From Gemmatimonadaceae bacterium (GTDB lineage: Bacteria > Gemmatimonadota > Gemmatimonadetes > Gemmatimonadales > Gemmatimonadaceae): a stretch of DNA of 40,173 nt. The notes beneath the pieces were generated by a model. It made no database searches and was not told where the DNA came from. It was given only the letters and a program-made list of their open reading frames with translations. The stretch covers positions 1 to 40,173 of the forward strand of contig JAICJQ010000012.1 in NCBI GenBank assembly GCA_025928335.1, in the 5' to 3' direction. Shown here in pieces: positions 3,339-8,710 of this stretch (the first letter of the stretch is position 1; the number at the start of each line of letters is the position of its first letter). The position numbers and the translations under genes were made by a program.

Positions 3339-5540
3339 TCACGATTCGCACTGCAGCAGAATGATCGCCGCGATAGACGCGGACACGGAGGTGGATTCGG
3401 TGGGATGGCGCGCGTTCAGCTCGCCGAACGCGGCGAGGCTCCGCAACCACGCCTCGTCGGAGAGTTCAGCGCCGACGAGCGTATCGAACACGCGCTCCGC
3501 CCCTTCCGGAAGCGGTGCCGTGGCAGCGGCGCGAGCGGCGGCGGCGAGTGGAGCGAGCAGCACCCGTCGATGGCGCGGCGTCCGGGACAACGCGTGAGCC
3601 ACGCGGGCCAGCGCGACGCGCCGCGCACGAGACGATGCGGCGGCCGCAAAGTCGATGCTCGCCGACGCGCGTCGATGGGCGAGCCAGGAATCGATGGACT
3701 GGCAAGCCGTGTCTGTGCGTCCCTGATCGGGTCGAGCCTCCGGTCCCTCGATCGCCCGCACTGCTTCGAGCACTCGGAAAGGCGACGTGGAAATCTGCCC
3801 GCCAAGATTGGTGAGAAGGATCGAATGCGATTGGTCCTCGACGAGCGCGAGGAATCCATCGCGATCGCTTCGTGCCGCGGCGATAACGGGCCGACCGTTG
3901 TCGTGGAAGCCGCTTTTTAGACAGGTGAGCCAGGCTGCGAGGTGACGACGCAGCTCGCCTTCACTGTCGGCAAGACTGCGCTCCTCTCCCGGCGTCACCC
4001 GAAACGCCGGCAGAATGTGTCCCGCCACGCCAATGGTGCGGTTCGCGACACGCAGCTTCGCCGTCAATCTCTTTTCGAGTTGAAGGAGGCGCTCGGCCGG
4101 AGCCGGCGGCGCTACGGCGTAGACGGTCACGCTCTCATGCCGCGAGCCAAGTCGGCGTACGCGACCCACGCGCTGCTCGAGCCGCGCGGGGTTCCAGGGA
4201 TAGTCGAGGTGAATGACCACCGACGCCTCTTGCAGATTCAATCCCTCGCTCAGCAGATCTGTCGTGAGGAGAAGCTGAATTTTCTCGGCGGTGGCCACCG
4301 TACGTGACGCGCCCGGCGTGAACTGTCGGAGTATGTCCCCGCGACTCACCGCCCCGCCGGCGACTCGGGCGCCCTTCGCGGTCAGCGCGGCAACGCCAGG
4401 ACGGCGAGCCAAGCGCGTCCAGAGCGCGTTGACCGTTTCCTCATAATGACAGAACGCGATGCTCCGCTCCGCTCTGTGCGCATCGCAGACTTCGGCAAGC
4501 CATGCGGCCCGGCCGTCGTCCGGATTCGGAGCGAGCGCGAGTGCCTGAAGCAACTCACCGGTCGCGCGATGGTGTGTCTCCAACGCTTCGCGGAGCTCAT
4601 CGAGATCGCACGCGTCCAAATCGCCATCGGCGACGACCAACGCGGGGAACGCGAGCTGCAACGCGTCGGACGCATAAGTCCACGCGGACAGCTCAGCGCG
4701 CGTCGGCCGCGCACCGGCGTCGATCGCGCTCAACATGGCGAGTGCACGCGCGCGCCGACGCTTGAGCGCGGCGACGAGCGCCGCGCGGCTCGACGACCAG
4801 TGGTGCAGGAGGCCCATGGTGAGCAACGCCGCCGGGAGCGATTCTCCTCGCGCGGGCACGGGCGGGGGAAGCTGCAGAAGCTGATCGATGCGATCGTCGA
4901 CAGGCGTGGTCGTCACGCTCAATGGACCAATCAGCCGTGGGAGCTCAGCGAGCGGATCGGAGTGTCCTCGCACGACATGCACGGAGATCTGTTCGTCGCT
5001 GAGCTGATCGGCCTGACGGCCGAGAAAGAGCGCCAGCAGCGCAACAAGGTCGTCACGGCGGTTTTGAACCGGCGTGGCGGAGACGAGCAACACCTTGGCG
5101 TGGCGGCATAGCTCGGCGGCTACCGCGTATCGACGCGTCGTCGGCACTCGAAAGCGATGCGCCTCGTCGATGATCAAGACGTCTGGGCGCCGGGTCGCTT
5201 CAGCGCCTCGACTGAGTGCCTCGTGCGTCATCAGCGTCGCGGACATCCGGCAGGCTTCGAGCGCGTCGTGCCACATCGAGCGAAGCGACGCGGGCGCGAG
5301 AACCGCCACCTTGCCGCCGAGCGCGCCGGCGACGGCCAGTGCCGTGTACGTCTTACCGACGCCGACCGGTTCCGCGAGCAGCGCGCCGTTGGTGCGACGA
5401 ATGATTTGCGCCAGCCGAGATGCCGCCGCTCGCTGATGGGCGCGCAGCACGACCGCGCCGAGCGTCGGCGGCACCGTGTCGGCGCCAAGAACCGAACGCG
5501 CGATTCTGTCTTGCACCACGCACAACGGAGCCATGAGCAT
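3339..5540 (-). CDS. SNF2-type DEAH helicase paired with DNA methyltransferase
   Basis: 733 residues from ATG 5540, five bases past the stop codon of the methyltransferase (a TTG at 5609 would overlap it by 67 bases; ATG 5534 is also possible). Superfamily 2 motifs in order: Walker A AEPVGVGKT (56-64), DEAH (125-128), SATPVQNRRDDL (154-165), motif V LLTTDLLSEGLNLQEA (423-438) and motif VI QRVGRVRRLGS (456-466). This is the SNF2/RapA-like layout of an ATP-driven dsDNA translocase. The last 230 residues are Ala/Arg-rich and show no nuclease motif (no HKD, no PD-ExK, no HNH). Close linkage to an Eco57I-like N6-adenine methyltransferase resembles the DrmD-DrmMI pair of class 1 DISARM, but drmA, drmB and drmC are absent here. 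A defence role is inferred from this pairing. Confidence 0.88.
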   Translation of the reverse strand: MLMAPLCVVQDRIARSVLGADTVPPTLGAVVLRAHQRAAASRLAQIIRRTNGALLAEPVGVGKTYTALAVAGALGGKVAVLAPASLRSMWHDALEACRMSATLMTHEALSRGAEATRRPDVLIIDEAHRFRVPTTRRYAVAAELCRHAKVLLVSATPVQNRRDDLVALLALFLGRQADQLSDEQISVHVVRGHSDPLAELPRLIGPLSVTTTPVDDRIDQLLQLPPPVPARGESLPAALLTMGLLHHWSSSRAALVAALKRRRARALAMLSAIDAGARPTRAELSAWTYASDALQLAFPALVVADGDLDACDLDELREALETHHRATGELLQALALAPNPDDGRAAWLAEVCDAHRAERSIAFCHYEETVNALWTRLARRPGVAALTAKGARVAGGAVSRGDILRQFTPGASRTVATAEKIQLLLTTDLLSEGLNLQEASVVIHLDYPWNPARLEQRVGRVRRLGSRHESVTVYAVAPPAPAERLLQLEKRLTAKLRVANRTIGVAGHILPAFRVTPGEERSLADSEGELRRHLAAWLTCLKSGFHDNGRPVIAAARSDRDGFLALVEDQSHSILLTNLGGQISTSPFRVLEAVRAIEGPEARPDQGRTDTACQSIDSWLAHRRASASIDFAAAASSRARRVALARVAHALSRTPRHRRVLLAPLAAAARAAATAPLPEGAERVFDTLVGAELSDEAWLRSLAAFGELNARHPTESTSVSASIAAIILLQCES

Positions 5541-5542
5541 TC

Positions 5543-8500
5543 TCACGTGGTGCTCCAGGCGACGAGTGGCGCGACGAGCGATCGACTCACACCGTACGCG
5601 CTGAGGCAAGCGTCGAGGAGCTCATGATTGCTCGGCGGCCGGCCCTGTCGGGCTGCAGCGCCGAGCGGGGCGAGAACGTCGCGCGCGTGCATCCAGTCCT
5701 GGGGTACGGGCAAGAGGGCCAACGTCCAGCCGAGGTAGCGTCGGTATCCGCCGCGTGCCGGTTCGGCGAGTGCGTTCAACCAGGCCTGTGCGAGTGGGCT
5801 GTTCAGCAACGCGGCGCCCGCGTCCGCATCCGGCAGGTTTCGGCAGCGGACGACGTAACAGCTGTTGAGCGGCACGCGTCGATCACCCGACTCCAAGACG
5901 CATGCCCGCGGTGCGCGGCCGACGTCCCCCCAGACGACGCGTGGGCGATCGTCGCGCGCGGCGTCGGTCCGGAAGAGCGTCCACCACCGATTGGTCGAGC
6001 GGCCGTCGCTGCGCGCGTTCAACGCGGGGCGCCACTTCGCCAACCACGACCGTGCGAACGGCGGGAGTTGTTCCAGCGGCGTGTCGCGGTGATCGTGCGT
6101 CCAGATGATGAAGTCGTCGTTCGGCGCCACGCGCCATTCTCGCAACTGGTCGCCGCGCACGAGTGGACGAAGGATCGCGGTCTCGATCATGAACGACGAC
6201 CCATCGGATGCGACAACGCGAGACTCGTCGCCGCCGTGGCCGACGCGTTGCACGACGAAGGCGTCGTTGCAGCCACATTTCACGCCGAGCCGGGGCCGGC
6301 CGAGCGGACTCTCGGCGAGTACTTGGCCTGCATCGCGCAGCGCGTCGAAGGCGCGTCGCACGCTTCGCGGCAGCAGCAACCACGGAGCGCCTGGACTCTC
6401 GTCGTACGGGAGACGGGCGGGCGGGATCTTCGAGCAAACGCCACCGCCGTGCTCGCGATGAACGACGACGTCGATGTCGTCCGACGCCGCGTCGCTTCGC
6501 CGAAGCACGATGTATGATGGATAGACCGCCGCATCGAATGCGGCGGCGCCTTCGGAGTGGTCCTCGATGCGCGCAATGGATGTTCGACGCATGATCAGCC
6601 GTCGTACGCCGCCGCCGGCAAGCGACCGCCATAGTTTGGCGGGAAGCAGCAGCGCCGCGACGCCATTTCGAGCGAGCAAGTCGATCGATCGCTCGACGAA
6701 GAGCGCGGCGGTGTCTATTTGCGCCGAGAAGCCCGAACCCGCGCCGGCGATCGCGGCGCCCGGCTCCCACGCGGCGCGGCGTGCGACCTCGAAATCGCGA
6801 CGGTAGCGCGCACGCTCACCGGCGCCGATGCGATGCACGCGGACCCACGGCGGATTCCCGACGACAACGTCGAAGCCGCCGCGCGCCACGACGTCGGCGA
6901 AATGCACGTCGAACGAAAACGCGAGGGCGCCACCGTTGATGACGCGGCGCCTCGATGTTCGCAGTTCGAGGGCGCGAGAGCGGAGCTCGCGCGACACGCG
7001 TCGCTCGTCGGACGTGGAGCGGTGTCGCTCGCCGAACAGGTCGCGTCCGCGTCGCGCGAGTACGAGGTCGCGCCGTCGAGCGCCGACGCTCAGTAGCTGC
7101 GCATCGAGAACCTCGATCGCCCGCTTGCGCTCGAGCCTCTCGATCCGGCGAGCTAGTGCGGTCTTTGTTGCACCACTCGCGCGCGCGTAGCGCACGCGAA
7201 GCCGAGCGAGCGCCGCCGCATCGCCAAGCGTCGGGAGGCCGTCGCGACTTGCGTCGCCGAGGGCATCGCCGACGCGGACGTTTCGATCCAAATTGGGGAG
7301 CGGCAGAATGGCCGCGATATCGTCGTCGGTGCCTTCGATGACGACCGACAGCCAGAGGCGGAGTCCGCACAGCCACGCGGCGATCGGGTTCACGTCGACG
7401 CCGAAGATCGATCGCGTGAGCACGTCGCGACGAATGCACGCGATATCGCGCTCGTCGCCGAGCGCGGCATGCATCGACGCGAGACGCTCGAGCATGTGCA
7501 CGAGAAAAGCCCCCGAGCCGCACGCCGGGTCGAGGACGGTGAGTCGCGACAGCTCCACGCGAAGGTCGGCGCGTCGCTGCGGTGACATCGTCGTCAGGTC
7601 TGTGGCGAGCGAATCGCCAAGGCGAGTGGTGAGGGCGTGGGCCGACAGCTCTTCGACGAGCGAGAATGGAGTGAAGAAGGCTCCCGTCCGCCGACGCTCG
7701 CGGCTCACCATCAATGACTCGAACGCGCGGCCGAGCATCTCCGGATCCACCGCGGCCTCGCTCCAGTCGGCGGTTTCTTCCCTGGCAGTGAATCGAAACT
7801 GGCCGAAGACGTCGTAGATCAACGCGCCATACGCGTCATCCGAGAAAATGATCGACGGGTGTGCGCGTTCGAGCGGCGTTCTCGCGAACAAACCGCCGTT
7901 GAGAAAGGGGATTTTCCCGAACGCGCGGGCCGCGGCGGCGCGTCGTCGAACCGGTGTATTGAGGGTGCCGAAGAAAAGCGGTTGAAGGATTGTCTGGCGA
8001 AATCGACCACCAGCGTTCACGCCCTGCTCGAAGGCGTGAGCGAGGAAGGCGCGGTCGCCGCGCAGCCAACCCTTCGCCTCGAGGAACGCGAGAAAGAGAA
8101 GCCGGGATGTATCGAGAAGCGCGAGCTCGCCGCGCGCGGCGTCGCTTCCCATCGACGCCGACTCGGCAATGCCGTCCACGGCGCGTTCCAGCGCGCGGTA
8201 GAAACGGCTGGTGAGGGCTTCGCGCCCGAGCACCTCCACCCAACGGGCATGCGTGACGACGTCATGCGGGGCAAGGGAAGCGGCCAGCGTACGCAGCGTT
8301 TCGGCGTCGCTGTCAATGACGTGCGCGCAATTCGTGACGAGCGCCGAGATCCGGGGAGGACGACTGTTCCCGGGCCAGGCCGCGATCGCGACGTCACCGC
8401 GCGCCGGTTGCACGGCGGCGATGATCCACAGCACATGCGGCGTTCGCGTCGAGAGCCGCTGCGCGATCCGGACGAGATGTTCGCGGATGGGCGCTTCGTC

Positions 8501-8710
8501 GCGGAGGTGAACGAGTAGAGCACGGAGAGCGCCGGCTCCGGCGGCGACGCGCGCTTCTTGAGCGAAGTCGTCCAGACCCAAGGCTTTGACCGCCTCCAGA
8601 TCGAGCGGCTGTGGCGCGCCGCTGCAACCCATTGCCGCGGCGATCGCGCCGAGTTCCTCGATGTCAGAGGCGTTTGCGAGGAGCTGCCCAGCGGCGCGAA
8701 GGGTCGACAC
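5543..8710 (-). CDS. Eco57I-like N6-adenine DNA methyltransferase
   Basis: 1055 residues from GTG 8710; an in-frame TAG lies three codons upstream, so this is the longest possible start. The SAM-binding motif I is LDPACGSGAFLVHMLERL (DPACGSG at 394-400), with SIFGVDVNPIAAWL after it, and the catalytic motif IV is VVGNPPWVRVHR (NPPW at 619-622), typical of gamma-class adenine methyltransferases. Residues 1-380 form an N-terminal helical region containing LLFLAFLEAKGWLRGD and FLNGGLF, as in BREX PglX and DISARM DrmMI proteins. An Arg-rich insertion (500-590) separates the two catalytic halves; residues 700-1055 look like a target-recognition region (PLVRGDQLREW, RYLGWTLALLPVP). I see no nuclease domain. 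It is coupled to the SNF2 helicase downstream, so it probably protects host DNA for that unit or marks it. Confidence 0.92.
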   Translation of the reverse strand: MSTLRAAGQLLANASDIEELGAIAAAMGCSGAPQPLDLEAVKALGLDDFAQEARVAAGAGALRALLVHLRDEAPIREHLVRIAQRLSTRTPHVLWIIAAVQPARGDVAIAAWPGNSRPPRISALVTNCAHVIDSDAETLRTLAASLAPHDVVTHARWVEVLGREALTSRFYRALERAVDGIAESASMGSDAARGELALLDTSRLLFLAFLEAKGWLRGDRAFLAHAFEQGVNAGGRFRQTILQPLFFGTLNTPVRRRAAAARAFGKIPFLNGGLFARTPLERAHPSIIFSDDAYGALIYDVFGQFRFTAREETADWSEAAVDPEMLGRAFESLMVSRERRRTGAFFTPFSLVEELSAHALTTRLGDSLATDLTTMSPQRRADLRVELSRLTVLDPACGSGAFLVHMLERLASMHAALGDERDIACIRRDVLTRSIFGVDVNPIAAWLCGLRLWLSVVIEGTDDDIAAILPLPNLDRNVRVGDALGDASRDGLPTLGDAAALARLRVRYARASGATKTALARRIERLERKRAIEVLDAQLLSVGARRRDLVLARRGRDLFGERHRSTSDERRVSRELRSRALELRTSRRRVINGGALAFSFDVHFADVVARGGFDVVVGNPPWVRVHRIGAGERARYRRDFEVARRAAWEPGAAIAGAGSGFSAQIDTAALFVERSIDLLARNGVAALLLPAKLWRSLAGGGVRRLIMRRTSIARIEDHSEGAAAFDAAVYPSYIVLRRSDAASDDIDVVVHREHGGGVCSKIPPARLPYDESPGAPWLLLPRSVRRAFDALRDAGQVLAESPLGRPRLGVKCGCNDAFVVQRVGHGGDESRVVASDGSSFMIETAILRPLVRGDQLREWRVAPNDDFIIWTHDHRDTPLEQLPPFARSWLAKWRPALNARSDGRSTNRWWTLFRTDAARDDRPRVVWGDVGRAPRACVLESGDRRVPLNSCYVVRCRNLPDADAGAALLNSPLAQAWLNALAEPARGGYRRYLGWTLALLPVPQDWMHARDVLAPLGAAARQGRPPSNHELLDACLSAYGVSRSLVAPLVAWSTT

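Follow-up and report, generated by a model that had tools for sequence, protein, structure and literature searches.

This study concerns two adjacent genes on a 40,173-nt stretch of DNA from a Gemmatimonadaceae bacterium (contig JAICJQ010000012.1 of assembly GCA_025928335.1; hereafter, the window). One encodes an Eco57I/MmeI-type N6-adenine DNA methyltransferase (MTase), and the other an SNF2-type superfamily 2 translocase, referred to below as the helicase. The pair is part of the core of the Gemmatimonadales and is vertically inherited. Our preferred explanation, which we rate as slightly better than even, is that the pair is a core modification–translocation operon descended from a restriction-type module, i.e., a type IIG-like MTase plus an HKD-nuclease/SNF2 fusion, from which the nuclease was lost. 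We are fairly confident of the origin and architecture proposed here; whether the present role is epigenetic, rather than defence without a nuclease, is evenly poised. A literature search for descriptions of this MTase–helicase pair found none.

Both genes lie on the minus strand, the MTase at 5543..8710 (1055 aa, GTG start) and the helicase at 3339..5540 (733 aa, ATG start). Their junction reads ACC ACG TGA GA ATG, leaving a 2-nt gap. Pfam, AlphaFold2, and structural matches divide the MTase, from N to C terminus, into an N-terminal domain (aa 1–160; 8231..8710), a helical spacer, a gamma-class catalytic domain, and a TaqI/CamA-like target-recognition domain. The Pfam matches are to Eco57I (2.4e-18), N6_Mtase (9.7e-9), and MmeI_Mtase (3.6e-8). 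Motif I, DPACGSG, which binds S-adenosylmethionine, occupies aa 394–400 (7511..7531), and the catalytic motif IV, NPPW, aa 619–622 (6845..6856). The helicase matches Helicase_C (7.9e-16) and SNF2-rel_dom (2.1e-10). It carries a Walker A motif (G60, G62, and K63; 5349..5363), a DEAH box (aa 125–128; 5157..5168), and motif VI, QRVGR (aa 456–460; 4161..4175), and it is without an N-terminal HKD nuclease domain. AlphaFold2 models built with orthologue alignments have mean predicted local distance difference test scores of 89.5 for the MTase and 87.8 for the helicase. The closest solved structures are CamA (the best), M.BseCI, MmeI, and BrxX for the MTase, and SNF2 ATPases of the Chd1/ISWI/RapA/ZorD type for the helicase. 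Neither protein has a Pfam match to HKD, PD-(D/E)xK, or HNH families. Thus, a preliminary description of the window, which had reported a two-gene unit with a 2-base gap, an Eco57I-like MTase with DPACGSG and NPPW followed by an SNF2 translocase, and no HKD, PD-ExK, or HNH motif in either protein, was accurate on these points, and the catalytic motifs of both proteins are intact.

To establish the distribution of the pair, a whole-genome search was made of 98 related Gemmatimonadales genomes, 58 of Gemmatimonadaceae and 40 of two sister families. The counts given are of orthologues and are stricter than the tallies at E < 0.001 (90/98 and 91/98), which take in paralogues. MTase orthologues are found in ~87 of the 98 genomes (~53/58 in Gemmatimonadaceae and ~34/40 in the sister families), and the helicase accompanies the MTase in all but one of these (86 of ~87). 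In a sample of the phylum, the orthologue also reaches f4 and f9, two more families of the same class; elsewhere, there were distant matches only. Since homologues at 37–62% identity occur in ~90% of related genomes with key residues invariant, the pair is real and not a chance arrangement. The 33–41 orthologues compared show no or almost no variation in motif I (D394, P395, A396, G398, and G400), NPPW, the D, E, and H of the DEAH box (A at least 90%), motif V (T-D and E-G), and QR.GR. Across three families, the catalytic residues do not vary, and the open reading frames (ORFs) are intact in nearly all genomes.

The target-recognition region (aa 741–1010; 5681..6490) is conserved to a degree close to that of the catalytic core, with a mean pairwise identity within the family of 0.50 versus 0.58–0.61. 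This is unlike the pattern expected from diversifying specificity. Systems with patchy distributions do appear patchy in this sample: PF09369, the DrmB domain, is found in 8/98 relatives, and strong type I HsdM-like matches in only 6/16 of these genomes. Conservation at genus level has been reported for 57% of orphan MTases versus 9% of those of restriction–modification systems (Blow et al., PMC4752239). The same study counts an orphan MTase as core when it is present in at least half of a taxon's species; here, the figure is ~87/98 genomes of an order, and no paired restriction endonuclease is present within the pair or the inspected neighbourhood.

In each of the 38 loci inspected in which the MTase is unsplit and the helicase lies on the same strand, the two genes are adjacent, and within the order they overlap or are spaced by at most ~150 nt. 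Most of the family shares one locus. Nudix and rhodanese genes lie upstream of the pair in 30/37 family loci, often along with LdcA, GltP, and a glycosyltransferase, and downstream there are often a HAD hydrolase, an ECF sigma factor, an anti-sigma factor, and DUF4097. In the window, the neighbours, named by eye, are DUF2339, a glycosyltransferase, and GltP on one side and an aldo/keto reductase, a TPR protein, and SdhB/SdhA on the other; no defence genes were seen among them. The setting is a conserved housekeeping neighbourhood. It is not a defence island, a setting for which the preliminary description had proposed to check.

Both proteins track the history of their hosts. In 26 genomes, the Spearman correlation with RpoB distances is 0.71 for the MTase and 0.84 for the helicase (0/2000 permutations each); inside the family, the values are 0.59 and 0.68. 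Each of the large families f1, f2, and f9 forms a single clade in all three trees (RpoB, MTase, and helicase). MTase and helicase distances are still correlated once RpoB is removed (0.52, 0/2000 permutations), which supports a joint function. A horizontally mobile pair is unsupported: the best plasmid matches are 25–29% identical, with none covering 80% of the query. Nor is there support for mobility via phages or viruses, given 6 weak phage matches and viral contigs at no more than 34% identity.

The proposed ancestry is based on the closest full-length relatives outside the lineage, which are plasmid modules of Nostoc (L094), Deinococcus (L095), and Calothrix (L102), corresponding to PADLOC PDLC03601/PDLC03596 and C3a139. 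In these modules, a few small genes, or one encoding a DUF262 protein, lie between the MTase gene and that of an SNF2 protein whose N-terminal part is an HKD (PLD) domain. Haloarchaea and actinobacteria have two-gene versions that are more distantly related. A Gemmatimonadales MTase profile matches the plasmid MTases at E values of 1e-145 to 1e-156 over nearly the full length, including the N-terminal domain, and the helicase profile matches seven HKD-SNF2 proteins at 1e-95 to 1e-107. The best PADLOC model across all helicase members is likewise C3a139, 'HKD+Snf2' (7.6e-41). The helicase alignment begins at residue ~217–242 of the HKD-SNF2 proteins, directly after the HKD domain, whose HxK...D at ~125–150 is intact in 7/7. 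The window helicase begins ~60 aa ahead of Walker A. The homology thus extends over all but the first ~220 residues of the nuclease-bearing fusion, and, judged by this alignment, the window translocase is an HKD-SNF2 fusion without its nuclease. The two kinds of module share the SNF2 motor, its tail, and the gene order of MTase then SNF2. They differ in that the Gemmatimonadales pair has no HKD nuclease and no intervening genes such as DUF262, and is chromosomal, vertically inherited, and order-wide.

Further clues come from the families f4 and f9. In f4 (L067, L069, L097, and L098), a separate ORF of ~185 aa lies between the MTase and the helicase. Although hhalign pairs it with the HKD domain (87.8%, E 3e-6), the catalytic H and K are missing, so that it seems to be a degenerate HKD-like domain. 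In f9 (L064–L066), the helicase has an N-terminal extension with a weak relation to the f4 ORF (E 6e-4). A mixed f4 and f9 alignment gave nothing in the profile comparison; with each family aligned on its own, the match of f4 to the HKD domain emerged. The simplest history is that the nuclease was lost before or within the order, and the intermediate stages are suggestive of this.

On our preferred explanation, the MTase would mark an adenine in a single short target sequence, probably an asymmetric one, throughout the host genome, with a specificity that may be similar across the family. The SNF2 protein would serve the MTase as an ATP-driven motor on double-stranded DNA, either to remove proteins bound there or to move the MTase. 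The motor would aid or regulate access, and the pair itself would cut nothing. Its role today would be core epigenetic or genome maintenance, as for CamA, Dam, and CcrM, rather than restriction by cutting. CamA is a core orphan N6-methyladenine (m6A) enzyme of Clostridioides difficile (PMC8187626). The pair resembles these core orphan MTases in its m6A gamma-class fold and clade-wide conservation, and possibly in having no paired endonuclease, none being found in the pair or its neighbourhood. In contrast to them, the window MTase is twice as long, with extra N-terminal and spacer domains, and is linked to an SNF2 motor. Moreover, the conservation of the pair spans an order rather than a species, and a regulatory role is here only proposed.

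Several observations weigh against this explanation. The best sequence matches are all to restriction or defence families. Both proteins evolve fast, the MTase at 3.2x and the helicase at 4.6x the rate of RpoB, which would also be compatible with defence or with weak constraint. The pair is dispensable: within the family it is absent mostly from reduced genomes (median 2.4 versus 3.8 Mb; Mann–Whitney p = 1.4e-4), and in some relatives mobile elements interrupt the MTase. One genome keeps the MTase alone, indicating that the motor can be dispensed with. The case for an HKD-like f9 extension is unconvincing (hhalign against the HKD domain, 0.2%). Finally, a nuclease may be encoded elsewhere in the genome.

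The main and serious rival to an epigenetic role is a fixed innate defence without a nuclease of its own, resembling bacteriophage exclusion (BREX) or the defence island system associated with restriction–modification (DISARM). Here, the MTase would mark self, and an MTase-guided translocase would engage unmethylated incoming DNA and block its replication or hand it over to a housekeeping nuclease. This is a possibility we take to be real though somewhat doubtful. The restriction and defence affinities of both proteins, their fast evolution, and their co-evolution beyond that explained by RpoB all speak for it, and it is also favoured by the toxin–antitoxin, viperin, and EVE genes that adjoin the plasmid relatives and by the repeated interruption of the MTase by casposons, described below. 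It would, however, be unusual for a defence system to be inherited vertically by almost all genomes and at a housekeeping locus. The pair has no nuclease, its target-recognition region has not diversified relative to the core, and one relative has an MTase with no motor. With BREX (PglX/BrxX and BrxHII) and the BREX-related DUF499/DUF1156 systems (PMC12839542), the pair shares an m6A MTase, an SNF2 helicase, and a possible non-cleaving mechanism. It differs in that its neighbourhood is without PglZ, BrxC/DUF499, or other partners; PglZ and DUF499/BrxC were absent from the inspected neighbourhoods, with no genome-wide search for them made. The MTase has no DUF1156 match, and BREX MTase models score 25–57 bits versus cut-offs of 400–900.

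The preliminary description had also raised the idea that a nuclease goes unrecognised in the helicase tail or at the N-terminus of the MTase, which would make the pair an intact, type IIG-like restriction system with a separate translocase. The MTase is indeed closest to type IIG models, and type IIG-like systems with separate translocases have been described (Blow et al., PMC4752239). It has the order of spacer, MTase, and single target-recognition domain seen in MmeI-type (IIG/IIL) enzymes, with a structural match to MmeI (5hr4) and with MmeI_Mtase and MmeI_hel matches in 33/33 and 28/33 members. Unlike those enzymes, it has no PD-(D/E)xK nuclease and has a separate SNF2 partner. Both candidate regions are predicted to be folded domains, the MTase N-terminal domain alpha/beta and the helicase tail (aa 500–733; 3342..4043) alpha+beta and weakly conserved, and neither shows a nuclease motif. 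The conservation of charged residues nowhere exceeds 77% in MTase aa 1–160 or 76% in the helicase tail. Over 39–41 orthologues, neither region has a conserved set of catalytic-type acidic and lysine or other basic residues, and no nuclease family is matched in MTase aa 1–160. Both regions are also present in relatives whose HKD nuclease is a separate domain: the N-terminal domain occurs in the plasmid relatives, and the helicase tail aligns in part with that of HKD-SNF2 proteins. There is no need to invoke a hidden nuclease, because the nuclease of the mobile relatives is the HKD domain at the start of SNF2, precisely the part missing here. We therefore regard this alternative as improbable.

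The likeness to the DrmMI–DrmD half of class 1 DISARM, noted in the preliminary description, stands as a general relatedness: an Eco57I-type MTase and an SNF2 helicase are adjacent in both, and there is weak DrmMI, DrmD, and DpdE similarity. That the pair is half of DISARM or of another multi-gene system with partners elsewhere in the genome is nevertheless very improbable. Models for DrmMI (4.4e-25) and DrmD (2e-23) match more weakly than a type IIG model (1.6e-50), the NCBIfam DrmD equivalog NF038317 scores 109.9 bits versus a cut-off of 610, and no PADLOC or NCBIfam DISARM equivalog comes near its cut-off. The DISARM core is defined as the DrmA helicase plus DrmB (DUF1998/MZB, PF09369; PMC9142583). 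As the preliminary description stated, no DrmA, DrmB, or DrmC gene adjoins the pair. PF09369 is absent from this genome, DrmA not having been searched genome-wide, and it is rare among relatives, as given above. Membership of class 1 DISARM is therefore rejected. A decaying remnant, also mentioned in the preliminary description and to which the lost nuclease and the interrupted MTases might point, is just as improbable, with motifs invariant in both proteins at 30–60% identity and ORFs intact in nearly all genomes.

The genome with the MTase alone, G020, is taken to be Gemmatirosa kalamazoonensis KBS708. Its MTase is intact at the same locus (L070, 8886–12753), and the helicase and the HAD gene are cleanly missing. 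The KBS708 methylome contains RGATCY, ATGCAC, and CCAGN7TCA, each methylated at >99% (PMC3974934). ATGCAC is the kind of asymmetric motif expected of this MTase and may be considered a candidate only. It is not assigned to this MTase because a distantly related type IIG-like system in the same genome competes for it; this locus (L071, 8935–14952) has three genes, encoding a type IIG-like MTase (PDLC03598, 3.6e-267), a helicase, and, by eye, a GIY-YIG nuclease-like protein. ATGCAC is neither over- nor under-represented in the available sequence. In the relative G051, this MTase is the one m6A enzyme recovered with PF02384, PF07669, PF01555, and PF02086, the four families searched.

Variant forms of the MTase gene were also seen. 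The MTase of one genus comes in two pieces, a catalytic part and a target-recognition part (L042 in G047, L081 in G021, and L135 in G153). In G047 and G021, the two ORFs seem to overlap by an ATGA start/stop, apparently a real two-subunit form; in G153, the same break point is seen in the alignment only.

Casposons interrupt the gene in some relatives. In G018 (L078 and L079; G018:C3:29940-41613), an 11.66-kb casposon-like element lies at codon ~983 of the MTase orthologue. It encodes Cas1 (PF01867, 1.8e-42), a PolB-like protein (PF03175, 0.0017, under the Pfam cut-off), and an HNH-like ORF, and it ends in terminal inverted repeats with a 16-bp target duplication, CTCAACGCCATCGCGG. A divergent casposon, its Cas1 42% and its PolB ~59% identical, is inserted at codon ~335 in G036 (L136 and L140; C112 and C123), with a 16-bp duplication, CCTTAATGGCCTCGCG, and terminal inverted repeats of ~140 bp. 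In G334, a second MTase copy (L148, C197:1-1126) stops at codon ~335, where a casposon-like terminus begins; a fragment of PolB lies close by. In G021 (L134 1845–2105, C3), a detached MTase 3′ fragment (aa 978–1043) starts at about the G018 insertion point and is followed by casposon-terminus-like sequence, CGGGGGCTTATCTCTTGACCC. Among 148 family genomes, only G018, G036, and G153 yielded a long match to a close casposon Cas1, and G334 yielded a fragment; three of these 4/148 sit in the MTase gene. A target-sequence preference is the simplest explanation of the recurrent insertion, and selection for inactivating the pair is the alternative.

Regulatory DNA MTases are usually solitary and are thought to derive from restriction systems. 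The Gemmatimonadota are an abundant, little-studied soil phylum, with Gemmatimonadales known from soil and freshwater. Here, intermediate steps from restriction system to orphan MTase seem to be visible, in an apparent series running from nuclease-bearing mobile modules, through the f4 family with its degenerate nuclease-like ORF, to an order that has kept the motor but not the nuclease and one genome without the motor. The question raised is what use an Snf2 motor is to an MTase if no cutting occurs. We tentatively suggest that the MTase and its own SNF2 remodeller-like motor would form an epigenetic system that is core to the whole order, a disarmed restriction module that was domesticated for regulating or maintaining the genome, with the MTase gene also being a recurrent casposon landing site. 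As such, the pair is a candidate core epigenetic system for the Gemmatimonadota.

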